Source: Candidatus Lindowbacteria bacterium RIFCSPLOWO2_12_FULL_62_27 (GTDB lineage: Bacteria; Lindowbacteria; 2-12-FULL-62-27). From it: a stretch of 64,000 bases of DNA. Positions 35,894 to 50,405 of the stretch are shown here, in pieces. The position numbers and the translations under genes were made by a program. The DNA lies in the NCBI GenBank assembly GCA_001784175.1, contig MFPR01000028.1, positions 327,614 to 391,613 of the forward strand, in the 5' to 3' direction. Within the stretch, counting starts at the first letter, position 1. Each line of letters begins with the position of its first letter. Below the pieces are notes generated by a model that saw only the letters and a list, made by a program, of their open reading frames with translations, did no database searches and had not been told where the DNA came from.

Positions 35894-36846
35894 CGCAGGT
35901 CCGGTCTGGCGGTGCGCGGGATCGGATAGGTGGGGTTGAAAAGCACGCTGAGGAAAATAAATGTTTTCTCAAGTCTCGACAGGGCCACGCGCCGTTCCAA
36001 AACCGGGAATCCGCCCGATTCGATCTTCACCAGAATCCTCGCATAGAGCGACGCCATCATCGCCACCGTCCGCCGCGCGACCGCGGACAGGTGCGTGAGG
36101 AGGGGATAGGCCATTTCGTAGTGCTGCCGGGCCCGGGCCGCGTTGATCGCGCACACCCGCAAAAACGCCTCCGTCGGCGTCCCGTTCAGAATGTCCGACT
36201 CCCGGCAGCCCGTCGTCGCCAGGTCCTCCTGCGGCAGGTAAATCCGGCCGCGCTGCGCATCCTCCTGGACGTCCCGCAGAATGTTGGTGAGCTGAAGGGC
36301 GATTCCGAGATTTTCCGCCATCTGTTTCGCCTGCGACTGCCGGCAGCCGAAGAGTTCCAGACAAATCAGGCCAACGCTCGACGCCACCAGCCGGCAGTAA
36401 TCCTTCAACGCGTCAAAGGTCACGTAGCGGTTCACCGTGAGGTCCCGCTCGGCGCCGTCCAGAATGAGTTCGAGATATTCGGGCGTCAGCGAGAATCGCG
36501 TCACCGTGTCCGCCAGCGCCGCCATCGCCGGATGCAGGCCCGACGTTTCGCCGGCCAGCGCCCGGCGCAGGTCACTGCGGAGTTGCCGGAGCTTCGCGAG
36601 CCGGTCGGGCGGATCAGCGCCTCCGGCGCCCCAAGTGCCGGCGTCTCCGACGCCGGCCGCGGCGGTCCCGGTGTCGGCGCCGAGGTCGGCCAGATCGTCG
36701 GCCTGACGCGCAAAGGCGTAGACGGCGAGCATCCCGTTTCGACGGGGTTGCGGCAAAAACCGGAATGCCCAGTAGAAGTTGCCGGCCTCCGCGCTCGCGA
36801 TCCGGTCGCAGTGAAGGTAGGCGCGAGACAGCGCAAGCGATGTCAT
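35890..36846 (-). CDS. hpnD: Presqualene diphosphate synthase HpnD
   Basis: A 318-residue trans-isoprenyl diphosphate synthase (squalene/phytoene synthase family). The first aspartate motif is AFARQADDLADLG and the second is RDVQEDAQRGRIYLP. The start at 36846 overlaps the hpnC stop as ATGA. Between the first aspartate motif and the next helix there is a 20-residue glycine/alanine-rich stretch (GVGDAGTWGAGG) absent from the family consensus; it is encoded by a palindromic repeat element shared with two other genes. It joins two farnesyl diphosphates at the membrane. The insertion is in a loop, and the reading frame is intact. Confidence 0.9.
   Translation of the reverse strand: MTSLALSRAYLHCDRIASAEAGNFYWAFRFLPQPRRNGMLAVYAFARQADDLADLGADTGTAAAGVGDAGTWGAGGADPPDRLAKLRQLRSDLRRALAGETSGLHPAMAALADTVTRFSLTPEYLELILDGAERDLTVNRYVTFDALKDYCRLVASSVGLICLELFGCRQSQAKQMAENLGIALQLTNILRDVQEDAQRGRIYLPQEDLATTGCRESDILNGTPTEAFLRVCAINAARARQHYEMAYPLLTHLSAVARRTVAMMASLYARILVKIESGGFPVLERRVALSRLEKTFIFLSVLFNPTYPIPRTARPDLR
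36614..36654 (-). repeat. Palindromic coding repeat element, copy A (in hpnD)
   Basis: A 41-bp GC-rich element made of two small hairpins, GGCGTC-GGA-GACGCC and GGCGCC-GGA-GGCGCT, joined by GGCACTTGG on the minus strand. Thirty-nine of its bases are identical to 49366-49404. Inside hpnD it is translated as a GVGDAGTWGAGGA loop directly after the DDxxD motif. Confidence 0.85.
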
Positions 36847-37691
36847 GATCTGGACCACACGACTTTCAAAAACTCGAACGGAAGCCGCAGGCGGCTCGCG
36901 AAATCGCCCAGCGTCGGACGCGGCGCGTTCGCGCGGGTTCGCTCCAGGATCGTCGTGCCGCCGGCGGCGAACATCGCCACCGGCCAGCGGTATCGCCAGG
37001 ACAACCGGCCGATGAGCTTCCATCCCTCCCGCATCATCGCGAGCGTTCGACGCACTTCATCATCGATCAACTCCCGCAGCGCCGGACATGCGGCTGGCCC
37101 GCCGGCGTTTGGCATATCCTCCTCGGACACGCCGAACCGCCGCAGATCCGTCCCGGGAATATAAATCCGGCCGCGATCCAGATAGTCCGACCGGACATCC
37201 TGCCAGAAATTGGCGAGCTGAAGCGCCGTGCATATCCGGTCCGACAGGCGGAACCGCTCGTCGTCCCGGTATCCCATCAGCATCAGCACCAGCCGGCCGA
37301 CGGGATCGGCGCTCCGGCGGCAGTAGTCCAGAACCTCGTCGAATGTCTCATATCTCGTTTTCGTCACGTCCTGCTCGAAGGCCGATAGAAGATCCAGAAA
37401 GGGCGCGTCGGGCAGGTCGAACGTGTGAATGGTTTCGCCCAGCGCCTCGAAGACCGGGTCTCCTCCGTAACGTCCCTGCTCGATGCGCTCGCGCATCCCG
37501 GCAAGACCCGATTTCGCATGCGCGACGTGGCCATCCGAACGGACGCCTTCGTCGGCGAAGTCGTCCGCCGCGCGCGCGAACGCATAAACAGCGGCCACGT
37601 GCGGCCGGAGCCGCCGGGGCAGCACCCGGGACAGGACGGGGAAATTTTCGTAGTGGGTTTGCGCGATGCGAATGCAGTGCTCATAGGACAT
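36843..37691 (-). CDS. hpnC: Hydroxysqualene synthase HpnC
   Basis: A 282-residue squalene/phytoene synthase-family protein with AFARAADDFADEG (first aspartate-rich motif) and RSDYLDRGRIYIPGTDL (second). Family members in the hpnCDE gene set convert presqualene diphosphate to hydroxysqualene. It lies first in the C-D-E order, consistent with other hopanoid clusters. Its start codon overlaps the last base of the family B polymerase gene, so translation is coupled to an unrelated enzyme. The assignment as HpnC rather than HpnD rests on order and on the closer fit of the downstream protein to HpnD. Confidence 0.88.
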   Translation of the reverse strand: MSYEHCIRIAQTHYENFPVLSRVLPRRLRPHVAAVYAFARAADDFADEGVRSDGHVAHAKSGLAGMRERIEQGRYGGDPVFEALGETIHTFDLPDAPFLDLLSAFEQDVTKTRYETFDEVLDYCRRSADPVGRLVLMLMGYRDDERFRLSDRICTALQLANFWQDVRSDYLDRGRIYIPGTDLRRFGVSEEDMPNAGGPAACPALRELIDDEVRRTLAMMREGWKLIGRLSWRYRWPVAMFAAGGTTILERTRANAPRPTLGDFASRLRLPFEFLKVVWSRS

Positions 37692-40084
37692 CAGAAAAGG
37701 CCGAGTTGCTCTTTCTCCACCAGCGCGTCCCGGTCATAGTCGAAGGTTTCCAGGACCCGAAGATACGCGTCGCAGAGCTTGTCACGGTAATAGTGGTAAT
37801 CCGGCGTGTGGGAGAACGGAATCCCGTCGATGTACGGCTCCACCTGCTGGGGCGTGCGGCGGCTGTTCGTGACGATCCACGAGACTTTCATGCCCGCCGG
37901 GACGTAGACGCCGAACTTCTCGGCCTTCTTCACCGCCTGCACGTGCGGCAGGCGGTCCTCGGCGCGGATCTCCTCGCCGGTTTTCTTTCTCCGCATGACC
38001 TTGTACGAACTCTCGTCCAGCGCTGTCTTCGAAATCACCAGGTCCTCCAGCTTTACGTCCCCCTCGGCCACCCGCTTGATCTCCCGGCGGCAGAGTTCCA
38101 CCGCGCCCTCGATGTCCTTCTCCATGATCCGCTCAAACAGCGCGTCGAGCGTTCTCGAAAGGAGCGGAAAACTGTCTCCCCGGCGCGTCTCGTAGCCGCG
38201 CACCACCACCTCCTGAACAGGATGCACGATCCGCCCGAAATACCGTTTCTTCATCTTGCCCAGGAAAAACGGCGACACCACTTTTTCGAACTCCAGCGTC
38301 AGCGCGCCCTGCGTGAACCGATCCGACAGTTTCTCGGCGAACCGCACGGTCCCCTCGATCGTCTGCTCGGGCGACACGACGAAAATCGAATCGGTGTCGG
38401 AATAGATGACCTTCAGGCCTTCGTCGCTCAGCTTGCTGATGATGCCCGTCGTGTAGTTCCGCGCCAGCGCCGTGATGCTCCCGCCGATGCGCCGGTCGGT
38501 GAAACGGTAGAAGCGGGACGCGAAGACGCCGTAGTGGGCGTTGGCGAGGATTTTCTGGGCGTTCTGGACGCTGTTGTAATAGCCGCGCTCCTCGGGCGAC
38601 TTGGCCGCCTTCATCTTATTCTTGCTGTCCCGCCGCGCCGTCAAGAGCCCCTTCATCACGCGCGGGAGAATCCCCTCCTTGGTCGCCGGATCGAGAAACT
38701 TCACGCCTTCCGGCGTCACGATCGTGCCCTGATCGGAAATGGTCGTGAAGCAGATGTTGTTCTGGATGATCACGCTCGGGTACAGGGACGCGAAGTCAAA
38801 CACGACGACGTTGTCGTAGAGGCCGGGGACCGGCTCATGGACGTAGCCGCCCTCGATCGCCTCGGCGTCGTCCCCGTGATGGTTGTTCGGCACCACGACC
38901 TTCTCCTTGTCGGCCGCGCGAATCAGCAGGCTGTCGATCAGGATGGAGTTACGGTCGAGCAGGCAGTCGAAGAGCGGGAGCTTGGCGACGTCGGCGATGG
39001 CCTGGTACTTTTCAAGGACCCGGATCTTCGACAGAATCTCGTGCGACAGGCGCGTGTCCTGAAGGCAGTATTCTTTGACGCGGCCCGGGTTCGTCTGCCA
39101 TTCCTCGTCCATTTTGGAAGTGTCGACGTCCAGTTTCTCCTTGCCCAAAATCAGGTGCGCCATCGCGCCCAGCGATTCGCGCTTGGGGCGCTTTTCCTTG
39201 CGCGCAAAATACCAGGAATCGGCCACCAGCCGGCCGGGAATCTCCACCGTCGTGTTCGTCCCCTTGTCCACGTATTTTTTCCCGCCGTCCTTCGCGCCGT
39301 TGCCGTCCCGGCTGTCCATGCCGCGCCGCCGGATCACGACGTCGCGGCCGTTCCGGGCCCATGCCGTCGACACGCCGTTTTGCGCGCAGCGGGCGGCGAT
39401 CAGCGGGATGTCGTAGTTGCAGATGTTGTATCCGGATACCACGTCCACATCGTCCTCGACCACGATCCGGCGGAATTTTTCCAGAATCGATTTTTCGGCG
39501 CCGTCCAGAATCTCCTCCTCGATCTTGCCCTCGAATTCCCGCACCAGACCAATGCAGATGATCTGGTTGTTCCTCAGGTTTTCGATGTCGAGCGACAGGA
39601 TCCGCAGCGGCGCAAAAAATGCGTCGACCGGCGACAGCTTCGACGCGTCGATCACGAGGTCGGTCCGATAGGGCTGTTTGGTCTTGCGCTCCTCGCCCTC
39701 GGCGCGGATGTGGCTGCCGAGGTCGTTGTCGTACAGAAACCGGCTTCGAAACACGATGTCCGCGGCCGTCGCGCCATAGCGGTCGCGGTAGACGGGCGTG
39801 TCGCCCGGCCGCGTGATGGTCACTTTGTAGGCGGTGATCGGCCGGCCTTCGCGGAACAGGGTCCGGGGCTCGAGACTGCGGACCTCGGCGTCCTTCGCCA
39901 GCGCGTCCAGCGTCGCCTGCGGCGGCTCGATCAGGTAGAAATACGGAAAGAACCCCTTGTAGAGGACCGCGATCGACTGGCCCTCCCGCGTCCGGCCAAA
40001 CATCTCGATCAGCGGAAACCGCTCCCCGTTCTCGTCGCGGTTGGTATAGGTCGCGTACAGCAATTTAAAGTCGTGCTGTTCCAT
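37691..40084 (-). CDS. Family B DNA polymerase, archaeal type
   Basis: A 797-residue replicative or repair polymerase. The exonuclease motifs are present: LSLDIEN (Exo I, DxE), GYNICNYDIP (Exo II) and YCLQDTRL (Exo III, YxxxD). The polymerase motifs follow: DFASLYPSVI (motif A, residue about 432), KILANAHYG (motif B) and YSDTDSIFV (motif C, residue about 560), with KMKKRYFG of the KKRY type. All catalytic aspartates are retained, so both activities should work. The length and N-terminal layout fit archaeal PolB rather than the E. coli Pol II. It is first in a minus-strand run with hpnC-hpnD-hpnE and has a promoter so close that the transcript may be leaderless. Confidence 0.92.
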   Translation of the reverse strand: MEQHDFKLLYATYTNRDENGERFPLIEMFGRTREGQSIAVLYKGFFPYFYLIEPPQATLDALAKDAEVRSLEPRTLFREGRPITAYKVTITRPGDTPVYRDRYGATAADIVFRSRFLYDNDLGSHIRAEGEERKTKQPYRTDLVIDASKLSPVDAFFAPLRILSLDIENLRNNQIICIGLVREFEGKIEEEILDGAEKSILEKFRRIVVEDDVDVVSGYNICNYDIPLIAARCAQNGVSTAWARNGRDVVIRRRGMDSRDGNGAKDGGKKYVDKGTNTTVEIPGRLVADSWYFARKEKRPKRESLGAMAHLILGKEKLDVDTSKMDEEWQTNPGRVKEYCLQDTRLSHEILSKIRVLEKYQAIADVAKLPLFDCLLDRNSILIDSLLIRAADKEKVVVPNNHHGDDAEAIEGGYVHEPVPGLYDNVVVFDFASLYPSVIIQNNICFTTISDQGTIVTPEGVKFLDPATKEGILPRVMKGLLTARRDSKNKMKAAKSPEERGYYNSVQNAQKILANAHYGVFASRFYRFTDRRIGGSITALARNYTTGIISKLSDEGLKVIYSDTDSIFVVSPEQTIEGTVRFAEKLSDRFTQGALTLEFEKVVSPFFLGKMKKRYFGRIVHPVQEVVVRGYETRRGDSFPLLSRTLDALFERIMEKDIEGAVELCRREIKRVAEGDVKLEDLVISKTALDESSYKVMRRKKTGEEIRAEDRLPHVQAVKKAEKFGVYVPAGMKVSWIVTNSRRTPQQVEPYIDGIPFSHTPDYHYYRDKLCDAYLRVLETFDYDRDALVEKEQLGLF

Positions 40085-40092
40085 GCCGGCCT

Positions 40093-40121
40093 ATTCTAAG
40101 TAATCGCGGGGCCTTGGGCAA
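40093..40121 (-). promoter_or_regulatory. Promoter of family B polymerase gene, possibly leaderless
   Basis: On the minus strand TTGCCC (40121-40116), 17 bases, then TAGAAT (40098-40093). Only 8 bases separate the -10 box from the ATG at 40084, so transcription would begin at or next to the start codon. No ribosome-binding site is visible, which fits a leaderless mRNA. Confidence 0.55.
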
Positions 40122-40211
40122 GTGTCCGCGCTCACACGCGGATTGTAGGGAGGACAGTTGGAGGGATTAACGTGTGATCCGGTGTCTTGAGCCGGTTCGA
40201 GGTCGGAAGGA

Positions 40212-40670
40212 TCAGACACGATTGGACACCTCTGTTTTTTTATCTCCATCGAGATGTTTGACCAGCAATAGATCGGGGGCGCCTTTTCCATTCAAGACAT
40301 ATTTGTATTCATCGACGAGGGATTTGATCAGATGTATTCCGTAGCCGGATCGGATTCTATTCTTGACGGCCTCGCGGACGGCTGTGGACGATGGATACCG
40401 TTCCAGGTCGAAGGGACCGCCAACGCCTTTAATGAGGACTTGGATGCATCTATTTGTGGCTTCGATCTCGAGCGACAAAGGCCGCGCATCCCGCCGTGCG
40501 TGGCGAATGATGTTGGAACACGCCTCTTCGACTGCCAGCGTGATCTGATAGACAGCCGATGGATCGATGCGAAGCATTTGGGTATGGGCGCCGATGGCCT
40601 GCCGGACTTTCGCAAGGTTGACGAGGGCGGGAGCAATTTCCATTGTCCACCGGGAGGGAATTTCAGGCAC
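40212..40670 (-). CDS. Anti-sigma factor kinase-like ATPase (RsbW/SpoIIAB type)
   Basis: A 152-residue GHKL-ATPase domain: TLAVEEACSNIIRHAR (N box, with the conserved E and N), IKGVGGPFDLE in place of the usual DxGxG(I/F)D, and SGYGIHLIKSLVDEYKY (G2 box). Proteins of this size in front of an STAS protein are serine kinases that bind a sigma factor or another output protein. Its ATG overlaps the STAS gene by 8 bp; an alternative start MEIAPALV is ten residues later. No dedicated sigma factor is encoded nearby, so the target lies elsewhere. The altered G1 box (KGVGGP for DxGxG) is odd. Confidence 0.8.
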   Translation of the reverse strand: MPEIPSRWTMEIAPALVNLAKVRQAIGAHTQMLRIDPSAVYQITLAVEEACSNIIRHARRDARPLSLEIEATNRCIQVLIKGVGGPFDLERYPSSTAVREAVKNRIRSGYGIHLIKSLVDEYKYVLNGKGAPDLLLVKHLDGDKKTEVSNRV

Positions 40671-41013
40671 GGGCTTGACTACCTTCTTTCTCGTTCTTCA
40701 GGAATTCGATGATTTCCGTAATCCCCAGCATATCGAACGATTCATAAATATCCTCGGGGGCATTCATGACTTTTAGAAATCCCCCGGCGCGTTCCACGGC
40801 GCCCAGGATGACCATCAATACCCCGATGCCGGCGCTGGAAATGAAGTCAAGGTCGGCGCAGTCGAGAATGACGCGGGGTTTGCCGGAGGCAACAACGGCC
40901 AGGGCCTGTTGCTCAAATTCTGGTGCCATCGTCGAGTCGATCGATCCGTTGAGGCGGATCACCGTGATGCTGGGATCCCACGACGCCGGATTCGCGCTGA
41001 ATTTAAAGTTCAT
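40663..41013 (-). CDS. STAS-domain anti-sigma factor antagonist (RsbV/SpoIIAA type)
   Basis: A 116-residue STAS domain. ITVIRLNGSIDSTMAPEFE is the first strand/helix unit, and VILDCADLDFISSAGIGVL holds the phosphorylatable serine pair (ISSAG) in the expected place. Phosphorylation by the overlapping kinase-like protein would control partner release. The two genes overlap by 8 bp, showing stoichiometric co-expression. A response regulator gene is 169 bp upstream on the same strand. Confidence 0.9.
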   Translation of the reverse strand: MNFKFSANPASWDPSITVIRLNGSIDSTMAPEFEQQALAVVASGKPRVILDCADLDFISSAGIGVLMVILGAVERAGGFLKVMNAPEDIYESFDMLGITEIIEFLKNEKEGSQARA

Positions 41014-41182
41014 CTTGAGACACCACGATGGATTCGGACCACCTCACCCCAAATTTGTGGAGGCGCCTCAGCGTTCGAGAGCGTAGAGCACGGCTTTCGC
41101 CGCCACACGTGTGCATCAAGGGCCGGCCGGGATTCTGCGCCCTGTATCGCTTGTGAATTCATCCACGCTCCTTCGTTCGCAT

Positions 41183-41665
41183 TTATTTCAATGCCTGCTC
41201 TACGGTTTCACCAAGTTTTGTCAGCTCGAACGGTTTTGTGAGAAGTTGGACGTTTGTTTTCTCGATGAATTGGCGCGCCGACGGTTCCATATCGGAGCCC
41301 GTCATCAGAATAAATTTATTGACGAGGTCGGACCGATGTTCCCGGACAAAATTGTAGAGGTCTTCGCCGGTTTTTTGCGGCATTTTGTGATCCGAAATAA
41401 TCAGGTTAAATTCTTGTTCGGTCAAATATTGGATGGCGTTATCAACCGTGGCTGCAATGAAAACACGGTATCCCTTCTGATGCAGGAAACGTCCGATGAC
41501 TTGCCGGATCGAGGGTTCATCATCCACCAGAAGGATGTCTTTTCGGACCGTCGACAACGATTGGTTATTTTTTGTCGATTGACCATTGGGTATATTGGAG
41601 ATGACTTTTTCCAACGCCTGTAGTTTTTGGTCATCTGAAAAATTTTGCTGCGGATTCGCCGTCAT
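41183..41665 (-). CDS. Single-domain response regulator
   Basis: A 160-residue protein from the ATG at 41665; an in-frame TTG at 41680 would fall at the edge of a terminator hairpin. Residues about 1-40 are a polar linker (NGQSTKNNQSLSTV). Residues about 42-160 are a receiver domain: ILLVDDEPSIRQVIG (acidic pair), LIISDHKMPQKTGED (phospho-acceptor Asp), FILMTGSD (Thr) and QLLTKPFE (Lys). No output domain, so it signals by protein contact, perhaps to the STAS/kinase pair downstream. Its leader is highly structured. The gene is more AT-rich than its neighbours. Confidence 0.85.
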   Translation of the reverse strand: MTANPQQNFSDDQKLQALEKVISNIPNGQSTKNNQSLSTVRKDILLVDDEPSIRQVIGRFLHQKGYRVFIAATVDNAIQYLTEQEFNLIISDHKMPQKTGEDLYNFVREHRSDLVNKFILMTGSDMEPSARQFIEKTNVQLLTKPFELTKLGETVEQALK

Positions 41666-41678
41666 GCGCTGCCTCGAC

Positions 41679-41696
41679 AAAAAGGGCGAGACGCCC
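41679..41696 (-). terminator. Intrinsic terminator directly before the response regulator start
   Basis: On the minus strand GGGCG-TCT-CGCCC is followed by TTTTTG, a textbook rho-independent terminator. It ends 13 bases before the ATG of the response regulator on the same strand, so it would stop transcription before the gene: an attenuator, or the 3' end of a non-coding RNA. Confidence 0.7.
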
Positions 41697-41707
41697 AGAA
41701 CTTCGTC

Positions 41708-41811
41708 GTTGCCCTGGAAGGCCTAGACGGGTTCCCTTTAGGACGCCCCGCCCGTGTATAGGCAGAGCAATCCCGTCCAGGCAACAAATCGAATATGGCT
41801 TCCAGGGCAAC
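41708..41811 (-). ncRNA. Candidate structured RNA upstream of response regulator
   Basis: A 13-bp perfect inverted repeat (41708-41720 GTTGCCCTGGAAG with 41799-41811) encloses a second 11-bp stem (41721-41731 with 41772-41782). The one imperfect pair of the inner stem is A-C if the plus strand is transcribed but U-G if the minus strand is, favouring a minus-strand RNA. The inner loop holds GCCTATACACGGGC and a further GC hairpin. The terminator at 41679-41696 follows. I recognise no known riboswitch family. Confidence 0.45.
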
Positions 41812-42118
41812 AAACTTTGCGGCCAATGCCGCACCGGGCGTATTGACTCATACAGCGTGAGGAAAGACAAGGTTCCCAAGGCGCGCGCGGATTTGCCCGC
41901 ATGGGCTTGCGGTTTGTGGGTTCGATGGCTGGTTCGTGGTGTAGTTGTTCGTCGACAGCGTCCGCCCTTCGTGTCAATTGGACGGCAAAATAGAGCATCG
42001 GAAATCCGCGGACGATGCCGTAGATATGGAACCGTCCCTGTTTTCGATTCAACGCGTTGTGTTGACTTTGTCATACATCCATGGGACACTGTGCATCGAG
42101 AAGGCGAAAGGCGCATGA
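41812..42118. other. Intergenic region, no gene recognised
   Basis: No convincing reading frame with a ribosome-binding site. Open minus-strand frames exist (to 104 and 161 codons) but two overlap in different phases and neither shows a domain. A further inverted repeat CGTCCGC/GCGGACG lies about 41965-42020, so this may extend the structured RNA. A TTGACT box at 42062 could serve the toxin gene. Confidence 0.4.
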
Positions 42119-42421
42119 ATGAACATCCTCATCACGAGAAATGCGGCCATACATATATTGAAACACGCCGTCGCCGCGCGGGAAATACGCCAGGCCGAAC
42201 GTGATCCGGCCCGCGTCGTGGTCCGGGCCGGCGGCGCGTTCTACTTTGTTTATGCCAGAACTCATTCCGGCCGTCTGCTTGCCGTCCTGATAGAGCGCCG
42301 GCCGGCCGGCCTGTTTTTGAAAACGGCGCGACCCATGGCATCGTGGGAGAAACGGCTCTACAGAGGGAAAAGGAAGATAAGGAGACACGATGAAACGGAC
42401 GAAAAAGAAGAGACTGCCTGA
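42119..42421 (+). CDS. Putative toxin of a type II toxin-antitoxin pair (BrnT/DUF4258-like)
   Basis: A 100-residue basic protein. The N-terminal part (HILKHAVAAREIRQAERDPARV) and the ending MASWEKRLYRGKRK resemble BrnT/DUF4258-like ribonuclease toxins, where a histidine-rich start and a late E-R/K-x-x-Y segment recur. It overlaps the CopG-type antitoxin gene by 32 bp, with the toxin first as in brnTA. A weak purine-rich site (AAGGCGAAAGG) precedes the ATG. The family call is tentative; the pair arrangement is the stronger evidence. Confidence 0.5.
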   Translation: MNILITRNAAIHILKHAVAAREIRQAERDPARVVVRAGGAFYFVYARTHSGRLLAVLIERRPAGLFLKTARPMASWEKRLYRGKRKIRRHDETDEKEETA

Positions 42422-42662
42422 CTTCAAACCCATGACCTCCGAGGAGGCCGTTAGGTGGTTTGAGTCGCACGACACGGGCATGTATATCGACGAGGACGAC
42501 ATCATCGATCTCGACGACGACAGCAATGATGCCATGCTGAACGTCCGGATATCGCGCTCCGTCAAGCGCGTTCTCGGACGCCTTGCGGAAACACGGGGCC
42601 TCCGCGGCGCCTCAACTTACGCGCGCCAGGTCCTCACCGAGGTGGCAAAAAAGGCCGCCTGA
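42390..42662 (+). CDS. CopG/BrnA-type antitoxin
   Basis: A 90-residue protein with AAGGAG ribosome-binding site inside the toxin gene. The start LPDFKPMTSEEAVRWFESHD matches the toxin-binding N-terminus of CopG-family antitoxins of the BrnA type. The end LNVRISRSVKRVLGRLAETR is a ribbon-helix-helix DNA-binding domain, so autoregulation of the operon is expected. An acidic linker (DEDDIIDLDDDSND) joins them. Confidence 0.7.
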   Translation: MKRTKKKRLPDFKPMTSEEAVRWFESHDTGMYIDEDDIIDLDDDSNDAMLNVRISRSVKRVLGRLAETRGLRGASTYARQVLTEVAKKAA

Positions 42663-42703
42663 CACCACGGCGCCGGCGAGCGGCAGGCTCCATCGTTCGT
42701 GGT

Positions 42704-42823
42704 TCAGTACCTCTTTCCATGTTTGTAGGGCTTGGTCCGGTTCTTGATCCGTTTCTTTTCGATTTCCGTTTCGATGTCGATCCCCAAGCCGCCACAAAGA
42801 TCAAACAGCCGGATGAACGTATG
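42704..42823 (-). pseudogene. 3' remnant of a MazG-like nucleotide pyrophosphohydrolase gene
   Basis: The minus strand between 42823 and the TGA at 42704 encodes a 39-residue peptide. It reads TFIRLFDLCGGLGIDIETE and ends NRTKPYKHGKRY. This matches the C-terminal helix and tail of MazG-like pyrophosphohydrolases (D-x-x-I-R-x-x-D-x-x-x-x-L-G-I-D-I-E followed by a K-x-x-x-N-x-x-R-P-Y-x-H-G-K tail). A TAA lies just upstream in frame and no start codon is available, so it is a truncated relic. The region is flanked by the toxin-antitoxin pair and carbamate kinase. Confidence 0.55.
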
Positions 42824-42863
42824 TTACTTGACTTTTCCCCCGCTTGCGACCAAAATCGCACGC

Positions 42864-43811
42864 ATGGCAGTCCATGGACCCCTCGTGATCGCCCTGGGCG
42901 GAAACGCCATCACGCGGCCCGGGCAGATCGGCACCATACCCGAGCAGTATCAGGCCACGCGTGAAACGTGCGAGCACATCGTCACCCTCATCGAGCGCGG
43001 CCACACCGTTCTCATTACGCACGGAAACGGGCCGCAGGTCGGAAACGTCCTCCGCCGCGTCGAGTGCGCGCGTGACGAAGTCTACCCGCTGCCGCTCGAC
43101 GTTTGCGTCGCCGACACCGAAGGTGGCATGGGATACATGATTCAGCAGTGCATGCAGAACGCCCTGATGAACCGGACCGTCCGCCGGTCCATCATTACCG
43201 TCATCACCCAGATGGTGGTCAGCCCCGATGACCCCGCTTTTCAGAATCCCACCAAACCCATCGGCCCCTTCATGGGCGTCGAGGAGGCGGAAGCCCGCCG
43301 CAAGATGGACCACTGGCAGGTGGTCGAAGACGCCGGCCGCGGATACCGCCGGGTGGTGCCGTCCCCGCGGCCGAAACGAATCATCGAGATCAACGCGATC
43401 CGATCGCTGATCCGGGAGCAGTGCATCGTCATCGCCTGCGGCGGCGGGGGAATTCCGGTCGTCGTGAACAGCGACGGCGACATCCGGGGCGTCGAGGGCG
43501 TCATCGACAAGGACCTCGCCAGCGCGCTTCTGGCGGGCGACATCGGCGCGCCGACGCTCATCATCTCCACGGGAACCGAGAAAGTGGCGCTCCACTACAA
43601 GAAGCCCAATCAGGTTCTCCTCGACCGGCTTTCGGCGGCCGAGGCCCGGCGCCATCTGGCCGAAGGGCATTTTCCGCCCGGCAGCATGGGCCCAAAAATA
43701 GAGGCGGCGGTCGAATTTCTCCAAAGGGGCGGGCGCGAAGTCATCATCACGACGCCGGACCAGATCGCCAACGCCCTCGACGGCAAAACCGGCACTCGCA
43801 TCTTGCCCTGA
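42864..43811 (+). CDS. arcC: Carbamate kinase
   Basis: A 315-residue amino-acid-kinase-fold enzyme that makes ATP from carbamoyl phosphate. The opening LVIALGGNAITRPGQ, ITHGNGPQVGN, and the late IVIACGGGGIPVV and VIDKDLASALLA are hallmark segments of carbamate kinase, including the lysine and aspartate of VIDKD. I take the ATG at 42864 because the catalytic glycine loop follows at the usual distance. It precedes the SsnA-like gene by 11 bp. In purine, agmatine or ureide catabolism it would harvest ATP from carbamoyl phosphate. Confidence 0.93.
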   Translation: MAVHGPLVIALGGNAITRPGQIGTIPEQYQATRETCEHIVTLIERGHTVLITHGNGPQVGNVLRRVECARDEVYPLPLDVCVADTEGGMGYMIQQCMQNALMNRTVRRSIITVITQMVVSPDDPAFQNPTKPIGPFMGVEEAEARRKMDHWQVVEDAGRGYRRVVPSPRPKRIIEINAIRSLIREQCIVIACGGGGIPVVVNSDGDIRGVEGVIDKDLASALLAGDIGAPTLIISTGTEKVALHYKKPNQVLLDRLSAAEARRHLAEGHFPPGSMGPKIEAAVEFLQRGGREVIITTPDQIANALDGKTGTRILP

Positions 43812-43822
43812 CCTCCCCCGCA

Positions 43823-45253
43823 TTGAGCAATCTCCTGCTTGGCCCGGCGACCGTCTGCACCTTCGGCGACCGGCCGCGCGTTCTGCAGAACGCGGCGGTG
43901 GTGGTGGCCGGTGGGATCATTCGGGAGGTCGGCCCCTGCAGAGATCTCGTAAAGAGATATCGTGAGTTCCAACGGTACGACACCGGCGGCGCCGTTCTCA
44001 TGCCCGGCCTCATCTGCGCCCACCATCATTTTTACAGCACCTTCGCCCGGGGCTTGGGCCCGGCCCGGACGCCCCGGAACTTTGTTGAAGTACTCAAATA
44101 CATGTGGTGGCGGCTGGACCGCAACCTGACGCTGGAGGACGTCTATTACTCGGCCCTCATTCCTCTCATCGAGTGCGTCCGGGCCGGCACGACCACCGTG
44201 ATCGACCATCACGCCTCGGCCTACGCCGTCCGCGGCAGCCTCCAAAAAATCGCCGAGGCCGTCCGGGCCGTCGGCGTTCGCGCCAATCTCTGCTACGAAG
44301 TCTCCGACCGGGACGGCCCGGACATCGCAGCGGAGGGCATCGAAGAAAACTGTGGGTTTCTGTCTTCCATGTCGAATCCAAAATCTAAAATCCAAAATCT
44401 AAAATCTAAAATCACAGGTTCTTTTGGCCTGCACGCCTCCTTCACCCTCTCGGACCGCACCCTGCGCGAGGTGGGGCGGCGGCTGGCGTCGTTCGACGCG
44501 GGCGTGCACGTACACGTGGCCGAGGACCTCGCGGACCGGCGGGCCGCGTTGAAGAAGCACGGGATGGGCGTGGTGGAACGGCTGGATCGCCTCGATCTTC
44601 TGTGCGACAAGACCCTTCTGGCCCACTGCATTCACATCACGCCGGCCGAACGCAGGATCATCGCGAGGAAAAAATGCATGGTGGCGCACAATCCGACTTC
44701 GAACATGAACAACGCCGTGGGAACCGCCAACCTTCTGGGTCTTTTGCGGGACGGGGTCCTCGTGGGCCTCGGAACGGACGGCATGCGGTCGAACATGCTG
44801 GACGAGGCCAAATTCGCGCCTCTGGCGCACAGGGCCGCGCTCCGGAACCCGGCGGCGGCCTTCCTCGAGTCGGCGGATCTTCTGGTCAAGGGCAATCCGC
44901 GCCTCGCCTCGCGGCTCTTCGGCGGCAGGCTGGGCGTGATCGAACCGGGCGCCGCGGCGGACCTCATCCGTCTCGAGTATCACCCGCCGACCCCCTTGAC
45001 CGACCAGACCTTCTATGGCCACCTGCTGTTTGGCTTGGCCAATGCCCGGGTGCTGGACACGATGGTGGCCGGCCGGTTTCTGATGAAGGGTGGCCGGCTC
45101 CGGCTCGGCGTTTCGGAACCCGACGTTGCCGAGGCGTCCCGGACCCTGGCCCAAAAATTCCGCGCGCGTTTCACCGCCGACCGTGCCCGGCCGGCGTCGG
45201 AGACGCATATCCGAGGCGCTGACCCGGCGTCCCGGAATAAAGTGATATCATGA
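43823..45253 (+). CDS. ssnA: SsnA-like metal-dependent amidohydrolase
   Basis: A 476-residue amidohydrolase-superfamily enzyme. I place the start at TTG 43823. LICAHHHFYSTFARG carries the HxH metal site; HVHVAEDLADRRA and LLAHCIHIT supply the next histidines, and VGLGTDGMRSN the catalytic aspartate. The order and HHF motif fit SsnA/cytosine-deaminase-like hydrolases, often with YgeY and carbamate kinase in purine or hydantoin breakdown. Two features are odd: a 39-bp heptad repeat in frame encodes NPKSKIQNLKSK in a surface loop, and the last 20 codons come from the palindromic element and a 52-bp perfect palindrome. Confidence 0.8.
   Translation: MSNLLLGPATVCTFGDRPRVLQNAAVVVAGGIIREVGPCRDLVKRYREFQRYDTGGAVLMPGLICAHHHFYSTFARGLGPARTPRNFVEVLKYMWWRLDRNLTLEDVYYSALIPLIECVRAGTTTVIDHHASAYAVRGSLQKIAEAVRAVGVRANLCYEVSDRDGPDIAAEGIEENCGFLSSMSNPKSKIQNLKSKITGSFGLHASFTLSDRTLREVGRRLASFDAGVHVHVAEDLADRRAALKKHGMGVVERLDRLDLLCDKTLLAHCIHITPAERRIIARKKCMVAHNPTSNMNNAVGTANLLGLLRDGVLVGLGTDGMRSNMLDEAKFAPLAHRAALRNPAAAFLESADLLVKGNPRLASRLFGGRLGVIEPGAAADLIRLEYHPPTPLTDQTFYGHLLFGLANARVLDTMVAGRFLMKGGRLRLGVSEPDVAEASRTLAQKFRARFTADRARPASETHIRGADPASRNKVIS
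44375..44413 (-). repeat. Heptanucleotide repeat inside the amidohydrolase gene
   Basis: Five and a half copies of AATCYAA (minus strand GATTTTR-type), 39 bp, encode a 13-residue in-frame insertion rich in Lys, Ser, Asn and Gln. The bases are strikingly AT-rich in a GC-rich gene. The same unit recurs at 56836-56867. Confidence 0.85.
45193..45226 (+). repeat. Palindromic coding repeat element, copy C (variant)
   Basis: GGCGTCGGAGACGC followed by ATATCC and GAGGCGCTGACCCGG. The ends match copies A and B, while the middle GGCACTTGGGGC section is shortened. It encodes SETHIRGADPASR of the amidohydrolase C-terminus. Confidence 0.7.
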
Positions 45254-45290
45254 TATCATGATAGCTATCATGATATCATGATATCACTTT
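45239..45290. repeat. Perfect 52-bp palindrome at the amidohydrolase/glyA junction
   Basis: A 26-bp arm starting AAAGTGATATCATGATATCA and ending GATAG is followed without spacer by its exact reverse complement, ending TGATATCACTTT. Within each arm TGATATCA-type units repeat. The stop codon of the amidohydrolase (45251-45253) lies inside it, 71 bp before glyA begins. After it comes GTGATTTCACTTTG, a decayed extra unit. It could be a transcription operator, an mRNA hairpin or a recombination site. Confidence 0.9.
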
Positions 45291-45323
45291 GTGATTTCAC
45301 TTTGATGCGGAGAGGAGCCGGGC

Positions 45324-46595
45324 ATGCTGGACGCGTTGTTTGAGTCGGACCCCGAGCTGGCGAAGATGCTGGTGCGGGAGGCGGTCCGCCAGGACGACCA
45401 CTTGGAGATGATCGCGTCGGAGAATTTCGTGAGCCCGGCCGTCCTCGAGGCGGCGGGGTCGGTGCTGACCAACAAGTACGCCGAAGGGTATCCCGGCCGC
45501 CGGTATTACGGCGGCTGCGTGCACATCGACGAAGTGGAGCGGCTCGCGCTGGAGCGCGCGAAGAAGGTGTTCGGCTGCGCTTGGGCCAACGTCCAGCCCC
45601 ACTCGGGCTCCCAGGCGAACATGGCCGTCTATTTCGCGCTTCTCAATCCCGGCGACTGGATTCTCACGCAGAATCTGGCCCACGGCGGCCATCTGACGCA
45701 CGGCTCCCCGGTGAATTTCAGCGGCAAGCTATACAAGGTATTTCATTATGGCGTGTCGCCCGATACCGGCCGGCTCGATTATGATTTCATCCGCAAGCTC
45801 GCGCGGGAATACAAGCCGAAACTGATCCTGGCCGGATGGAGCGCCTATCCCCGGCAGATTGATTTTTCTGTGTTCCGAAACATCGCCGACGAGGCCGGAT
45901 CGTACCTCATGGTCGACATGGCCCATTTCGCCGGGCTCGTCGCCGCCAAACTCCATCCCGATCCCCTCCCGCACGCCCACGTCGTCACGACGACCACGCA
46001 CAAGACCCTGCGCGGGCCCCGCGCCGGGATGATCCTGTCGAACGACGAGGAGATCGGCAAAAAGATCGACAAGGCGCTTTTCCCAGGGATGCAAGGCGGG
46101 CCCCTGTGTCACATTGTCGCCGCCAAGGCCGCCGCGCTCGGCGAGGCGCTCCGTCCGGAATTCGCGGAGTACCAGAAACGGATTCTCGAAAACGCCCGCG
46201 CCTTGGCCGAAGAACTCATCGCCGGCGGCCTTACCCTGGTGTCCGGCGGCACCGACACGCACCTCGTCCTCGTCGATCTTTCGCCCCGCGGACTTTCCGG
46301 GCAGCTCCTCGAGAACGCGCTGGACGCGGCCGGCATCACCGTCAACAAAAACGCGGTGCCGTTCGACAAGCGAAAGCCGATGGATCCGAGCGGCATCCGG
46401 ATCGGCACGCCCGCCGTCACGACCCGCGGGATGGGCGCGGCGGACATGCAGAAGATCGCGCGATGGATCTTGAAAGTGGTTGAAAAGCCGGAGGACAATG
46501 CTACACTTCGATCAGTGCGAGCCGACGTGCGCGAGCTTTGCATGCGATTCCCTTTGTATCCGGATATCATACAACGATACAAGGCCAGGGTTTAG
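45324..46595 (+). CDS. glyA: Serine hydroxymethyltransferase
   Basis: A 423-residue PLP enzyme converting serine and tetrahydrofolate to glycine and methylenetetrahydrofolate. [33 protein letters not shown] and [12 protein letters not shown] are conserved. The PLP lysine is in [16 protein letters not shown], and [14 protein letters not shown] is near the end. A GGAGAGGAG ribosome-binding site lies 8 bases before the ATG. It sits between SsnA- and YgeY-like genes, which might draw glycine or C1 units from the same catabolic route; it is also a housekeeping gene, so the link is inferential. Confidence 0.96.
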
Positions 46596-46617
46596 AATAA
46601 AGGAAGGCGGGTACGAT

Positions 46618-47970
46618 ATGAAATCCCAGAGAAAACCTGTCGTTGGACGGGGAGCTACGAAACAAGTATCTAGACAAGTATTTCTAGAGAGGGCGGAGCA
46701 TTACCGGGACGACATGGTCCGATTCCTCAGGGACCTCATCCGCATTCCGTCCGAAAGCGCGCAGGAGGAGAAGGTGGTCCGGCGGATCCAGCAGGAGATG
46801 GAGAAGCTGCAGTACGACGAGGTCGTGATCGACGGATTCGGCAATATCCGTGGCCGGGTCGGGTCCGGCCGCCGGAAATTCGCGATCGACGCGCACATTG
46901 ACACCGTCGGCGTGGGCGATCCGGACACCTGGAAGTGGGACCCGTTCGAGGGCAAGGTCGAAAACGGCATTATCTATGGAAGGGGCGCCTGCGACCAGAC
47001 CGGCGGCATGGTGAGCGCGACCTACGCGGGCCGCATCCTCAAGGACCTCGGGATCGGCGGCGATTATGCGGTGTACATGGTGGGGTCGGTCATGGAGGAG
47101 GACTGCGACGGCCTTCCGTGGTTGTACATTTTGCGCGAAGAGAATCCCGGCATCGAGTGCGTCATCATCACGGAACCGACAAACCTTCAGATTTATCGCG
47201 GCCACCGGGGCCGGATGGAGATCGAGGTCACCACGAAAGGCCTGTCCTGTCACGGCAGCGCGCCGGAACGCGGCGTCAACGCCGTCTACAAGATGGCGCC
47301 GGTCGTCAAGGAGATCGAATCGCTCAACACCCGCCTTCGGCACGACGATTTTCTCGGCAAGGGCACCGTGACCATCAGCGACATCCGCGCGACCTCCCCC
47401 TCGCTCTGCGCCGTCGCCGACAGTTGCACCATCCATCTGGACCGCCGCCTCACCGCCGGCGAAACGAAGGCCCTGGCGGTGTCGGAGGTCAAGGACGCCG
47501 CGCGCCGCGCGGGCATTCCGGACGCCCAGGTCCGCATTCTCGAATATCAGCGGCCCACGTGGACGAAGAAGGTCTACCCGATGGAGAAGTACTATCCGAC
47601 GTGGGTCCTTCGGGAGGACCATCCGCTGATCGTGTGCGCCGCCGAGGCGTACCAGCGGGCGTTGGGCGAGCGGGCGAAGATCGGCAAGTGGACGTTCAGC
47701 ACGAACGGCGTGGCGGTGGCGGGCCTCTGCGGCGTCCCCTGTTTCGGGTTCGGCCCGGCCGAGGAGAGCACCGCGCACAGTCCCATGGACCAGTGCCCGA
47801 TCGACCATCTCGTCAAGGCCGCCGCCTTTTACGCATCGTTTGTTCCGACCTATGTCGAAACCACGCGCCGTGACCAGATCCGCCTGGACGACGCCAGGCC
47901 AAAAGTCAAAAAGTCAAGAGCGGCACTTTCTGCACGCTCCGTACGCTCCGTAACGCGGTCGGGGCGGTAA
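46618..47970 (+). CDS. ygeY: YgeY-like M20 family hydrolase
   Basis: A 450-residue metallohydrolase of the M20 (ArgE/DapE) family. DAHIDTVGVGD supplies the first metal histidine and aspartate, GRGACDQTGGMVSA the bridging aspartate, VMEEDCDGL the catalytic and metal glutamates, ITEPTN the next carboxylate and HSPMDQCPIDH the last histidine. The dimerisation lid domain lies about residues 205-315. The DQTGG and MEEDCDG forms and the neighbours fit the YgeY subgroup linked to selenium-dependent purine catabolism, although no selenium gene is present here. The last 25 residues (VKKSRAALSARSVRSVTRSG) are a low-complexity tail from an AAAAGTC-like repeat. AAGGAAGG ribosome-binding site. Confidence 0.85.
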   Translation: MKSQRKPVVGRGATKQVSRQVFLERAEHYRDDMVRFLRDLIRIPSESAQEEKVVRRIQQEMEKLQYDEVVIDGFGNIRGRVGSGRRKFAIDAHIDTVGVGDPDTWKWDPFEGKVENGIIYGRGACDQTGGMVSATYAGRILKDLGIGGDYAVYMVGSVMEEDCDGLPWLYILREENPGIECVIITEPTNLQIYRGHRGRMEIEVTTKGLSCHGSAPERGVNAVYKMAPVVKEIESLNTRLRHDDFLGKGTVTISDIRATSPSLCAVADSCTIHLDRRLTAGETKALAVSEVKDAARRAGIPDAQVRILEYQRPTWTKKVYPMEKYYPTWVLREDHPLIVCAAEAYQRALGERAKIGKWTFSTNGVAVAGLCGVPCFGFGPAEESTAHSPMDQCPIDHLVKAAAFYASFVPTYVETTRRDQIRLDDARPKVKKSRAALSARSVRSVTRSGR

Positions 47971-47981
47971 TTGAGTTCACC

Positions 47982-48458
47982 ATGCCGCTAAATGATGTGC
48001 TGGAGGCGAAGGTCAAGCTGGTGGGCCTGGACGCCGCGAAGCGTCCGGTCGTGATCCTGGACTGCGGCGAGCGGGTCCTGCCGATCTGGGTGGGCAATTT
48101 CGAAGCGATGGCCATCAGTTCCGTCCTGTCGGGTTCGACTCCGCCGCGTCCCATGACGCATGACACCGCCATTAACATCATCCGCGCCTTTTCCTCCAAG
48201 CTCGACCGCGCGGTCGTGCACAAGCTTGAGAACAACACCTTTTTCGCCCGGCTCTATGTCAAGCGGCACGACGAGGAGACGCAGCACATCAAGGTCGTGG
48301 AGATCGACTGCCGGCCCAGCGACGCCATCGCGTTGTCGCTGCGGATGGAGGCCCCGATCTTCGTGAGCCGAGCCGTCCTCGACGCCGCCGGCGTCAAGAA
48401 CCTGAAAGTGGACCGCGGCTCCGGCGACGACGCGGCGCCGCCGGAAGAGGAACAGTAG
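47982..48458 (+). CDS. Bifunctional nuclease (BFN/DUF151) domain protein
   Basis: A 158-residue protein. VVILDCGERVLPIWVGNFEAMAI and RPMTHDTAINIIRA are the DUF151 core; DCRPSDAIALSLRMEAPIFVS is its usual ending (SDAIALALR). A charged C-terminal tail follows. Homologues have DNase/RNase activity in some plants, or occur in bacteria without known function. It begins 11 bp after ygeY and ends 7 bp before the HDOD gene, so it may belong to either unit. Confidence 0.85.
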   Translation: MPLNDVLEAKVKLVGLDAAKRPVVILDCGERVLPIWVGNFEAMAISSVLSGSTPPRPMTHDTAINIIRAFSSKLDRAVVHKLENNTFFARLYVKRHDEETQHIKVVEIDCRPSDAIALSLRMEAPIFVSRAVLDAAGVKNLKVDRGSGDDAAPPEEEQ

Positions 48459-48465
48459 CAGCCGC

Positions 48466-49344
48466 GTGATCGAGCGGTATTACCAAAAAGAGCCGTATCT
48501 CCCGCTTCAGCCAACGCTCCGGAAAAAACTGCAGGCCATCATGGACTCAAAGGAGGCCCAGGAGGTCCGCCGCGCGGCCATGGAGGAGGCCATCCATGCC
48601 TTTCCGCTTCTGGCCTTCAATCTGCTCAAGCTTGTGAACTCGTCGGTCTTCAATCTGAAAACCAAGGTGACCGTGCTCAAGCAGGCCGCGTCCCTGCCCA
48701 CCTTTGATCTGTTCAAAGACATGATTCAGCGCACGCCCGAGTATCCGCCCGATCTGGAGCCGGTCATGACCTTGAACCGGTTCGAGGAACATTCCCGCGC
48801 CACCGCCCTGACCGTGCAGCTTTTGGCGACGCTCGGCCGGCGGTTCAGCACGACCGACCGCGAGCGGCTCTTTACCGCCGCGCTTCTGCACGACATCGGC
48901 CGGATTTTCCTTGTGATGTCCGACCCGGACGGATACCGGAACATCCAGAAGGACGCGGGGGGATCGGGCTCCGTCGTCGAATCGGAGCGAAAATATTTCG
49001 GGACCGACCATGCGACGCTCTCGGCCCTGGCGGTCGAGCAGATCGGCATTGCCGACCCGCTGGTCCTGGACGCCATCCGCCGTCACCACGAAATCCCGAC
49101 CGGCGCCTCCATCCTGGTCGCCTATGCGGACCGGCTGGTCAAGCGATTCGGGATCGGGCCGTCCGAAGGCGGCGCCATGAGCGAGTCTGCCGCCCACGAC
49201 GAGGCGCGCCTCAAGGTGGCGCTGGAGGAGACGGTTCAAATGACCGTAGGCGAGATCATGATGCACGTTCTTTCGGAGGTCGACACACTGATGTCTTCGG
49301 GCCTGGCGCAATTCAAAAGCCTCACGGCATCGATGAGCATATGA
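48466..49344 (+). CDS. HDOD-domain signalling protein
   Basis: A 292-residue protein from a GTG. FPLLAFNLLKLVNSSVFNLK is the HDOD core helix pair. Residues about 105-215 hold HD-type residues TAALLHDIGRIFLVM (HD) and AIRRHHEIPTG (HH), so unlike many HDOD proteins a metal site may be kept. HDOD proteins act in second-messenger or two-component signalling rather than as enzymes. Its stop overlaps the ATG of the binding-lipoprotein gene as ATGA, and a hybrid kinase follows: a three-gene signalling operon. Confidence 0.8.
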   Translation: MIERYYQKEPYLPLQPTLRKKLQAIMDSKEAQEVRRAAMEEAIHAFPLLAFNLLKLVNSSVFNLKTKVTVLKQAASLPTFDLFKDMIQRTPEYPPDLEPVMTLNRFEEHSRATALTVQLLATLGRRFSTTDRERLFTAALLHDIGRIFLVMSDPDGYRNIQKDAGGSGSVVESERKYFGTDHATLSALAVEQIGIADPLVLDAIRRHHEIPTGASILVAYADRLVKRFGIGPSEGGAMSESAAHDEARLKVALEETVQMTVGEIMMHVLSEVDTLMSSGLAQFKSLTASMSI

Positions 49345-50405
49345 ACCCTCCTTCCTCCCGGCCGTCGTCGGAGACGCCGGCACTTGGGGCGCCGGAGGCG
49401 CTGACCCGGGCGCGCCTTCGGTTCATGTTCGCTGCTGTTCTGTCCCTCCTCGCGGTCCAGGCCTGCTCGACCCACGAGCTTCCGCCCGGCGGCGTGGCCT
49501 TCGGCCGGGTCCACCGGCTGGGCATTGTGCCGTGGGTGATGGACGCGCACCAGAAAAAAGTGGTGGACGCCTTTTTGGAGGCGCTGGCGCAGGCGGGCTA
49601 TTCGTCGAACACGAATCTGGAAGTGAAAATTCTGGACGCGGGCGGAAGCGTCCGCGCGCAGGAGCAGAACTTGCGGGACCTCCTCCTGTGGCCTTCCGAC
49701 CTGATTTTTTCCCTTTCGGCCGAAGGCACGCTGATGGCGAAATCCCAGGCTTCTGCGATCCCGGTCGTTTTCAGCGGAATCAGTTATCCGATGGAGATGG
49801 GTCTGGTGGAGCGCCTGGAGTTTTCATCCAACCAGATGGTGGGCATCAAGTGTTATGTGCCGGTGGAGGAGCAACTGGCGTTCCTCCTGCGCCTGATTCC
49901 CGGCGAGGTCCGGCGGCTGGGCGTGTGCCTGAAGGCGGGGGACCGGGACTCGAAGATTCTGCTGAAAGAAATCCGGGACCTGGCCGTCAAGCAGGGCATG
50001 GAGGTCATGCGGATCGAGGCGACCGACGCGACGAGCCTGATGCGCACCCTCGCGGAGGCCGGGCCGCCGGCGGACGCCTTTTATCTGGCCTGCGACGATT
50101 TCCTCCAAGGCGAGGGCGCCCGGCTGGTGATCGACCACGCCACGCGGCGGGGCATTCCGGTCATGTCCTGCGGCCAGCGCGCGGTGGAGCGGGGCGCGCT
50201 GGCCGGCGCCGTCGTGGACGAAGAGGCGGCGGCTCGGATGGCCGCGGCACAGGCCGCACAGATTCTGGGCGGCCGCACGCCCACGTCCCTCCAGACGCTC
50301 ACCGCCAGTCCGCCGAAGCTCATGGTGAACCGGTCCGCGGCGAGAAGTTTGGGTCTTCGGATTCCGCCGACGTTTCTGGGCGAAAACGTATTTATATATG
50401 AATAG
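49341..50405 (+). CDS. ABC-type substrate-binding lipoprotein (PF04392 type) of a sensory operon
   Basis: A 354-residue periplasmic binding protein of the ABC_sub_bind type (RLGIVPWVMDAHQKKVVDAF, SLSAEGTLMAKSQASAIPVVF, and the hinge VMRIEATDATSLMRTL). The lipobox is SLLAVQAC. With the ATGA start it has a 28-residue N-terminal extension encoded largely by the palindromic repeat element; the ATG at 49425 (MFAAVLSLLAVQAC) gives a normal lipoprotein signal and may be the true start. No permease or ATPase is adjacent. A hybrid histidine kinase follows after 3 bp, so it probably senses a ligand and signals to the kinase. Confidence 0.78.
   Translation: MNPPSSRPSSETPALGAPEALTRARLRFMFAAVLSLLAVQACSTHELPPGGVAFGRVHRLGIVPWVMDAHQKKVVDAFLEALAQAGYSSNTNLEVKILDAGGSVRAQEQNLRDLLLWPSDLIFSLSAEGTLMAKSQASAIPVVFSGISYPMEMGLVERLEFSSNQMVGIKCYVPVEEQLAFLLRLIPGEVRRLGVCLKAGDRDSKILLKEIRDLAVKQGMEVMRIEATDATSLMRTLAEAGPPADAFYLACDDFLQGEGARLVIDHATRRGIPVMSCGQRAVERGALAGAVVDEEAAARMAAAQAAQILGGRTPTSLQTLTASPPKLMVNRSAARSLGLRIPPTFLGENVFIYE
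49366..49404 (+). repeat. Palindromic coding repeat element, copy B
   Basis: Thirty-nine bases identical to the reverse complement of 36616-36654 in hpnD. Here the reading frame gives SETPALGAPEALT, whereas in hpnD the same bases are read in another phase as GVGDAGTWGAGGA. Confidence 0.9.

Follow-up and report, generated by a model that had tools for sequence, protein, structure and literature searches.

Rickettsia provides the best-known examples of selfish repeats within protein genes, and how these repeats move has been unexplained since 2000. The Rickettsia palindromic elements (RPEs; RPE-1 and others, Ogata 2000, 2002) are ~105-150 bp long and form one long stem (reviewed in PMC2229807, PMC10969869). 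We analysed a 64,000-nucleotide stretch of DNA, hereafter the window (contig 28, bases 327614-391613), and characterized a short palindromic repeat which acts in a similar way. Like the RPEs, it sits in numerous unrelated protein genes without breaking their frame and adds a peptide to them, it has no known transposase, and it is apparently near neutral. Unlike them, it is 48 nt long and consists of two separate hairpins rather than a single long stem, is translated in four frames, using both strands, where RPEs encode one conserved peptide, has ~90% of its copies within genes (about half for RPEs), and occurs in a different lineage. When 84,980 species genomes were scanned with the element pattern, there was no match in Rickettsia, by which we judged that the sequences are not related. 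The initial annotation of this DNA had likened the repeat to the Rickettsia elements; the likeness holds for function and fails for ancestry, and the element is most likely analogous to RPEs, not homologous.

Other families of small palindromic repeats were also compared. With GTAG REP/REPIN sequences and their RAYT (TnpAREP) transposases, the element shares size range, short-loop hairpins, covarying stem subfamilies, high copy number and the presence of Y1 genes in the same genome, and some REPs are also intragenic (PMC3733652, PMC3116915, PMC6006769). However, it has no GTAG or GTGG at the hairpin foot and no copies beside the 20 Y1 loci examined, it is mostly genic whereas REPs are mainly extragenic, and its two unequal hairpins occur in a fixed tandem order, in contrast to inverted REP pairs. 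The REPs with a CGTC tag, among them RPE-4 and RPE-6, are palindromic, sometimes intragenic and without a linked transposase (PMC3733652), all of which is also true of the element. In contrast to these REPs, its CGTC sits in the stem and varies (CGCC, TGTC, AGTC), with no unpaired terminal tag, its loop has 3 nt instead of 4-5, and its tail is TGAYCCG instead of CCA (PMC3733652). The element resembles IS200/IS605 in having hairpins close to its ends, in inserting 3' of a short sequence like its right end and in making no target duplication (PMC6006769), but it is far smaller and has neither an internal transposase gene nor a visible left guide tetranucleotide. A MITE of a DDE transposon was considered and rejected, as terminal inverted repeats with target-site duplication were not found. 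Because it acts like an RPE yet departs from both RPEs and REPs in these features, we regard the element as a variant of intragenic palindromic repeats. Double-hairpin elements of fungal mitochondria also have two GC-rich tandem hairpins scattered within genes; their genome type and sequence differ.

Genomes and searches

The source genome (G000, 4.39 Mb in 44 contigs) was compared with two relatives from the same family (G001 and G002). Proteins of these relatives are 40-70% identical to those of G000, and for this reason most empty sites are visible at the protein level only. All three assemblies are fragmented, and genes were called by a simple codon-usage method. Element copies were identified with a covariance model (CM) made from 60 distinct copies, with a match cut-off of E <=0.1. 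The G000 lineage looks poorly sampled, because all candidate relatives except G001 and G002 share the domain alone.

Element copies in the window

The observation that started this work, 39 identical bases in hpnD (36616-36654, minus strand) and at the start of a lipoprotein gene (49366-49404), was reproduced, and the match extends to 50 nt at 96% identity (36610-36659, minus strand, and 49359-49408, plus strand). A shortened version, noted at 45193-45226 near the end of an amidohydrolase gene, is also present and begins slightly earlier (Table 1). Each of the three had been described as two GGA-loop hairpins, which is correct for both full copies; the short copy has lost the loop of its second hairpin. 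The 48-nt unit in hpnD is listed as 49 nt since one terminal G is ambiguous.

As noted initially, the two full copies are read in different frames, as AGVGDAGTWGAGGAD in HpnD and as PSSETPALGAPEALT in the lipoprotein. In the latter, the added residues (PSSETPALGAPEALTR) are N-terminal of the hydrophobic signal segment. The lipoprotein start at 49341 is supported by the overlap of its ATG with a TGA (ATGA), read as the stop of the upstream frame. Comparison of HpnD with homologues, which had been proposed as a check, revealed that the G002 ortholog lacks the loop, the net gap there being exactly 16 residues. The shortened copy (~38 nt versus 49) is unique within G000; its length is not a multiple of three, and it is entered in the SETP frame and left in the GAD frame.

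Table 1. Coordinates of element copies, their hairpins and host genes (window positions unless a locus is named)
Feature	Position	Strand	Evidence or remark
HpnD-like squalene/phytoene synthase (host gene)	35890..37023	-	Pfam SQS_PSY 4.6e-72; element adds AGVGDAGTWGAGGADP
Full copy within hpnD	36610..36658	-	CM match G000:C28:364223-364271
Hairpin 1 of hpnD copy, GCCGGCGTC GGA GACGCCGGC	36637..36657	-	Folding and covariation
Hairpin 2 of hpnD copy, GCGCC GGA GGCGC	36617..36629	-	Folding and covariation
Amidohydrolase (host gene)	43823..45253	+	Pfam Amidohydro_1 5e-46
Shortened copy near amidohydrolase C-terminus	45189..45226	+	Hairpin 1 kept, hairpin 2 loop lost
ABC transporter substrate-binding lipoprotein (host gene)	49341..50405	+	Pfam ABC_sub_bind 1.8e-31
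Full copy near lipoprotein gene start	49360..49408	+	CM match G000:C28:376973-377021
Hairpin 1 of lipoprotein copy	49361..49381	+	Sequence; one mismatched pair, G-to-T, GGCCGTCGTC
Hairpin 2 of lipoprotein copy	49389..49401	+	Sequence
Nested copies	G000: L073, L076, L094, L102; G002: L138		
Three-hairpin 57-nt form, G002	L235:7071-7128, L236:7260-7317, L237:2983-3040, L238:8067-8124		

Additional repeats were observed in the window. Directly 3' of the shortened element and overlapping the amidohydrolase gene end is a perfect 52-bp AT-rich palindrome (AAAGTGATATCATGATATCATGATAG/CTATCATGATATCATGATATCACTTT; window 45239-45290, G000:C28:372852-372903). It belongs to a second repeat family with ~15 G000 loci, some of which have a few extra central bases. 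Positions 59253-64000 contain at least 10 tandem repeats of ~402-420 bp, 60-88% alike and with consistent codon-length spacing, apparently part of a giant repetitive protein continuing past the window end. Rfam 15 gave no gathering-score hit within the window.

Anatomy and folding of the unit

The unit of 48 nt, or 16 codons, reads GCCGGCGTC-GGA-GACGCCGGC-ACTTGGG-GCGCC-GGA-GGCGC-TGAYCCG and contains, in this order, hairpin 1 (9 bp, GGA loop), the linker ACTTG, hairpin 2 (5 bp, GGA loop) and the tail TGAYCCG. The base 3' of the tail is G in 88/88 copies and the G 5' of hairpin 1 varies in G002; thus, hairpin 1 is the most likely start of the unit, and YCCG its end. In the alignment of 60 distinct copies, the hairpin feet read YCCG/G and ACTTG.

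The consensus DNA fold has an MFE of -19.7 kcal/mol (z -3.3). Covariation of the stems was pronounced: 98.2% of cells were paired and two-sided changes outnumbered one-sided ones 75 to 3, while none of 500 shuffles was as good and slid structures were only 28-61% paired. This set had been found partly with a pairing filter, and the fair control is a scan in which the stem letters are free; there, complementary stems were present in 56 of the 57 exact G000 pattern matches. The GGA loops and the ACTTG linker were nearly invariant and the stems variable.

Size forms of ~24 nt (a single hairpin), 33, 48 and 57 nt were detected, all of them multiples of three; a few decayed copies had lengths that are not. 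The 57-nt form of G002 has three hairpins, with CCGCC-TGA-GGCGG in place of ACTTG, and keeps a multiple-of-three length. A truncated pair on G000:C31 (L253:7176-7219 and L253:7394-7427), one member of which is a 33-nt form, is in opposite orientation and ~200 bp apart.

Distribution of the element

A genome search for the repeat had been set beforehand as a test, and the outcome was not two copies: the 40-nt core occurred 50 times in G000 at <=3 mismatches, whereas the reversed pattern was not found at all. The halves alone were present 71 (3' half) and 57 (5' half) times in this genome, and the CM matched ~84 sites in G000, 1 in G001 and 46 in G002. The element is a dispersed repeat with ~80 recent near-identical copies. 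Chance similarity, or a single old event of gene conversion involving hpnD and the lipoprotein gene, is ruled out for practical purposes by the 50 copies against none in the reversed control and by orthologs without the insert.

We found no copies in 95 further genomes besides G000, G001 and G002. An exact pattern scan of the same 84,980 species genomes recovered a relative MAG, NC_groundwater_1274_Ag (JACQOF01), which is G002, plus four single hits; these lack the first hairpin and were read as chance. There was also no element match in viral contigs, and no match in a plasmid collection queried with 1 kb of hpnD DNA. The commonest hairpin-2 stem is GCGCC in G000 and GCCGC in G002, a difference which suggests separate expansions in the two genomes. 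The sole G001 copy (L234:3600-3648, G001:C255) is located in a Fic/DOC gene, in the arginine-rich frame. Other genes of this contig code for helix-turn-helix proteins and for apparently toxin-antitoxin-like ones, a setting which suggests that the copy arrived by gene transfer.

Empty sites and target preference

Sixteen ortholog comparisons, made with the element masked, spanned an insertion site. The net gap was exactly 16 residues in 7 of them, HpnD included, of another size >=10 in 7 and smaller in 2, and in 0/16 did the relative's ortholog carry the element at the compared site. The cleanest empty site in DNA is exact (GCGAAATTCC^GCG in G001, AAATTCC^GCG). In glutamyl-tRNA synthetase (GltX), AGSAPPAPQVPASPTPA has no counterpart in three PDB homologues. 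Further hosts include IF-2 and LepA (in their N-terminal regions), a glucosylceramidase-family enzyme and an AhpC-family protein. These results bear on the idea that the element persists because it serves its host, either as GGA-loop RNA hairpins for a CsrA-like protein or as nucleoid-protein sites. The near invariance of loops and linker beside variable stems would fit such a role, but the host genes are unrelated, the compared positions are not common to relatives, and copies occur on both gene strands, where the antisense ones would give UCC loops; we consider it very unlikely.

Insertion sites had a distinct composition, with C at -2 in 65/88, C at -1 in 71/88 and G at +1 in 88/88, followed by GCCG. 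The preferred site, YCC^G plus GCCG, thus resembles the sequence on either side of the junction formed by the element's own ends, and the base at -3 tracks the terminal Y of the element (permutation p 0.0004). The left and right flanks do not match, and we conclude that there is no target-site duplication, because the right end is always YCCG and the left end varies. Local GC skew, a crude test, revealed no replication-strand bias of orientation.

Five nested copies were identified (Table 1), each of which splits the GGA loop of another copy between G and GA; the hosts of nested copies are older copies. Given that the element makes up ~3.7 kb of the 4.39 Mb, simple proportion predicts only ~0.05 nested copies in G000. 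Hairpin loops as a general target were also considered and rejected, since the enrichment was due to the nested copies and little difference was seen among the rest.

Two other modes of spread were weighed against these data. In the first, a site-specific recombinase or an IS110-like enzyme would act on a double-stranded circular form of the element and recombine the circle junction, TGAYCC^GGCCGG, with similar chromosomal sites, which would explain why the target resembles both junction sides (YCC to the left and GGCCG to the right) and why target duplication is absent. However, strong stem covariation and nesting in loops are unexpected for a double-stranded mechanism, and this model appears unlikely. 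Alternatively, template switching, gene conversion or hairpin-primed replication errors might spread the element without a dedicated transposase. The two-sided stem changes, with almost no intermediates, resemble arm-to-arm templated correction, and the discrete sizes (24, 33, 48, 57 nt) are also compatible with such errors, whereas exact 48-bp units with fixed ends, unrelated sites, a target motif and ~80 near-identical copies are hard to explain in this way; we view copying errors as quite improbable.

Use of reading frames

Among the 77 G000 sites, 69 were inside called genes, 3 at gene edges and 5 intergenic. The gene caller labels 94% of the same DNA as coding; therefore, genes are not avoided by the element. 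Because its length is divisible by three, the unit leaves the host frame intact at any point of insertion. All frames had been described as open; in fact five of the six are, and sense frame +0 ends in TGA.

Frame use was assigned from the flanks alone, with the element removed, for 40 copies from two genomes. In sense orientation, the frame with arginines and TGA was used by no copy, GVGDAGTWGAGG by 8 and SETPALGAPEAL by 3; in antisense orientation, SAPPAPQVPASPTP was used by 8, the arginine-rich frame by 1 and VSASGAPSAGVSDAG by 20. Hence the stop-containing and the other arginine-rich frames together accounted for 1/40 copies. Measured against how target motifs are phased in these genes, the bias had a p value of 2e-4 to 4e-10, depending on the motif. 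This depletion is, as far as the sequences indicate, a signature of translation and purifying selection. In one sense copy (L088:6027) the stop codon was mutated, with GGACCC for TGACCC. Peptides predicted from the element include AGVGDAGTWGAGG and VSASGAPSAGVSDAG.

Insertion inside genes had initially been ascribed to all frames being open. This explanation survives in part, as most frames are open, but it needs the multiple-of-three length as well, and the stop and arginine-rich frames are strongly depleted. Tolerance can be explained by the unit being a multiple of three together with five of six frames being stop-free. Selection would purge insertions bringing in a stop or a peptide rich in arginine, and those adding a bland Ala/Gly/Pro/Ser/Thr linker would be retained; the element may then be viewed as selfish DNA that is probably close to neutral for its host.

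Proposed mode of movement

An exact 48-bp unit, a target preference, the lack of duplication, covarying hairpins and loop nesting can be read from the DNA itself, and from these we infer single-stranded movement by a trans-acting enzyme. In the mechanism that we propose, the 48-bp unit would insert exactly, just 3' of a YCC/G-like site; it would move as single-stranded DNA, with its folded hairpins recognised by a transposase acting in trans. The mover would most plausibly be a member of family Y1 (HUH), as for IS200/IS605 and REP elements. That the element is a non-autonomous, single-strand-type miniature mobile element moved in trans, most plausibly by a Y1 (HUH) transposase, is the explanation that we favour among those considered, at about even odds.

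The IS200/IS605 enzyme binds subterminal hairpins and cuts short sites set by a guide sequence (PMC6006769). This plan is loosely matched by the element's right half. A guide of 4 nt would not fit between target and hairpin 1, and the predicted fold pairs GGG with the terminal CCC, a possible guide pairing in which no covariation was seen on inspection. These points speak against the model, as does the lack of an orientation bias in the crude GC-skew test.

Y1 transposase genes were detected in all three genomes (8 in G000, 6 in G001 and 10 in G002). REP systems usually flank their transposase. Neither the element nor a GGA-loop hairpin was found beside Y1 genes at the 20 loci examined (of 24 in the three genomes), and this absence counts against a Y1 mover, as does the presence in G001 of six Y1 genes yet one element copy. 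Two Y1 sequence types, VTARGNNRQ and WYHVVARGNERR, were noted in both G000 and G002 and not among the six genes of G001; they provide a lead to the mover, not proof. In this family, many Y1 genes have ~290-365 codons and a C-terminal extension (L162, L163, L165-L181).

More tentatively, the element might represent a new class, a frame-neutral single-strand mobile element built of hairpin modules in 3-nt units (24, 33, 48, 57 nt), which would insert at YCC/G sites and hairpin loops, including its own, via an undescribed mover, and seed dozens of host proteins with linkers; we regard this wider reading as possible but doubtful.

Implications

The element is apparently an independent case of such repeats in an unrelated, poorly sampled lineage. 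Its near-identical copies, empty sites, target motif, nesting and internal frame controls make spread within genes testable with defined sequences. In addition, known enzymes here carry dozens of natural insertions of 16 residues, which provide material on where proteins tolerate inserts.
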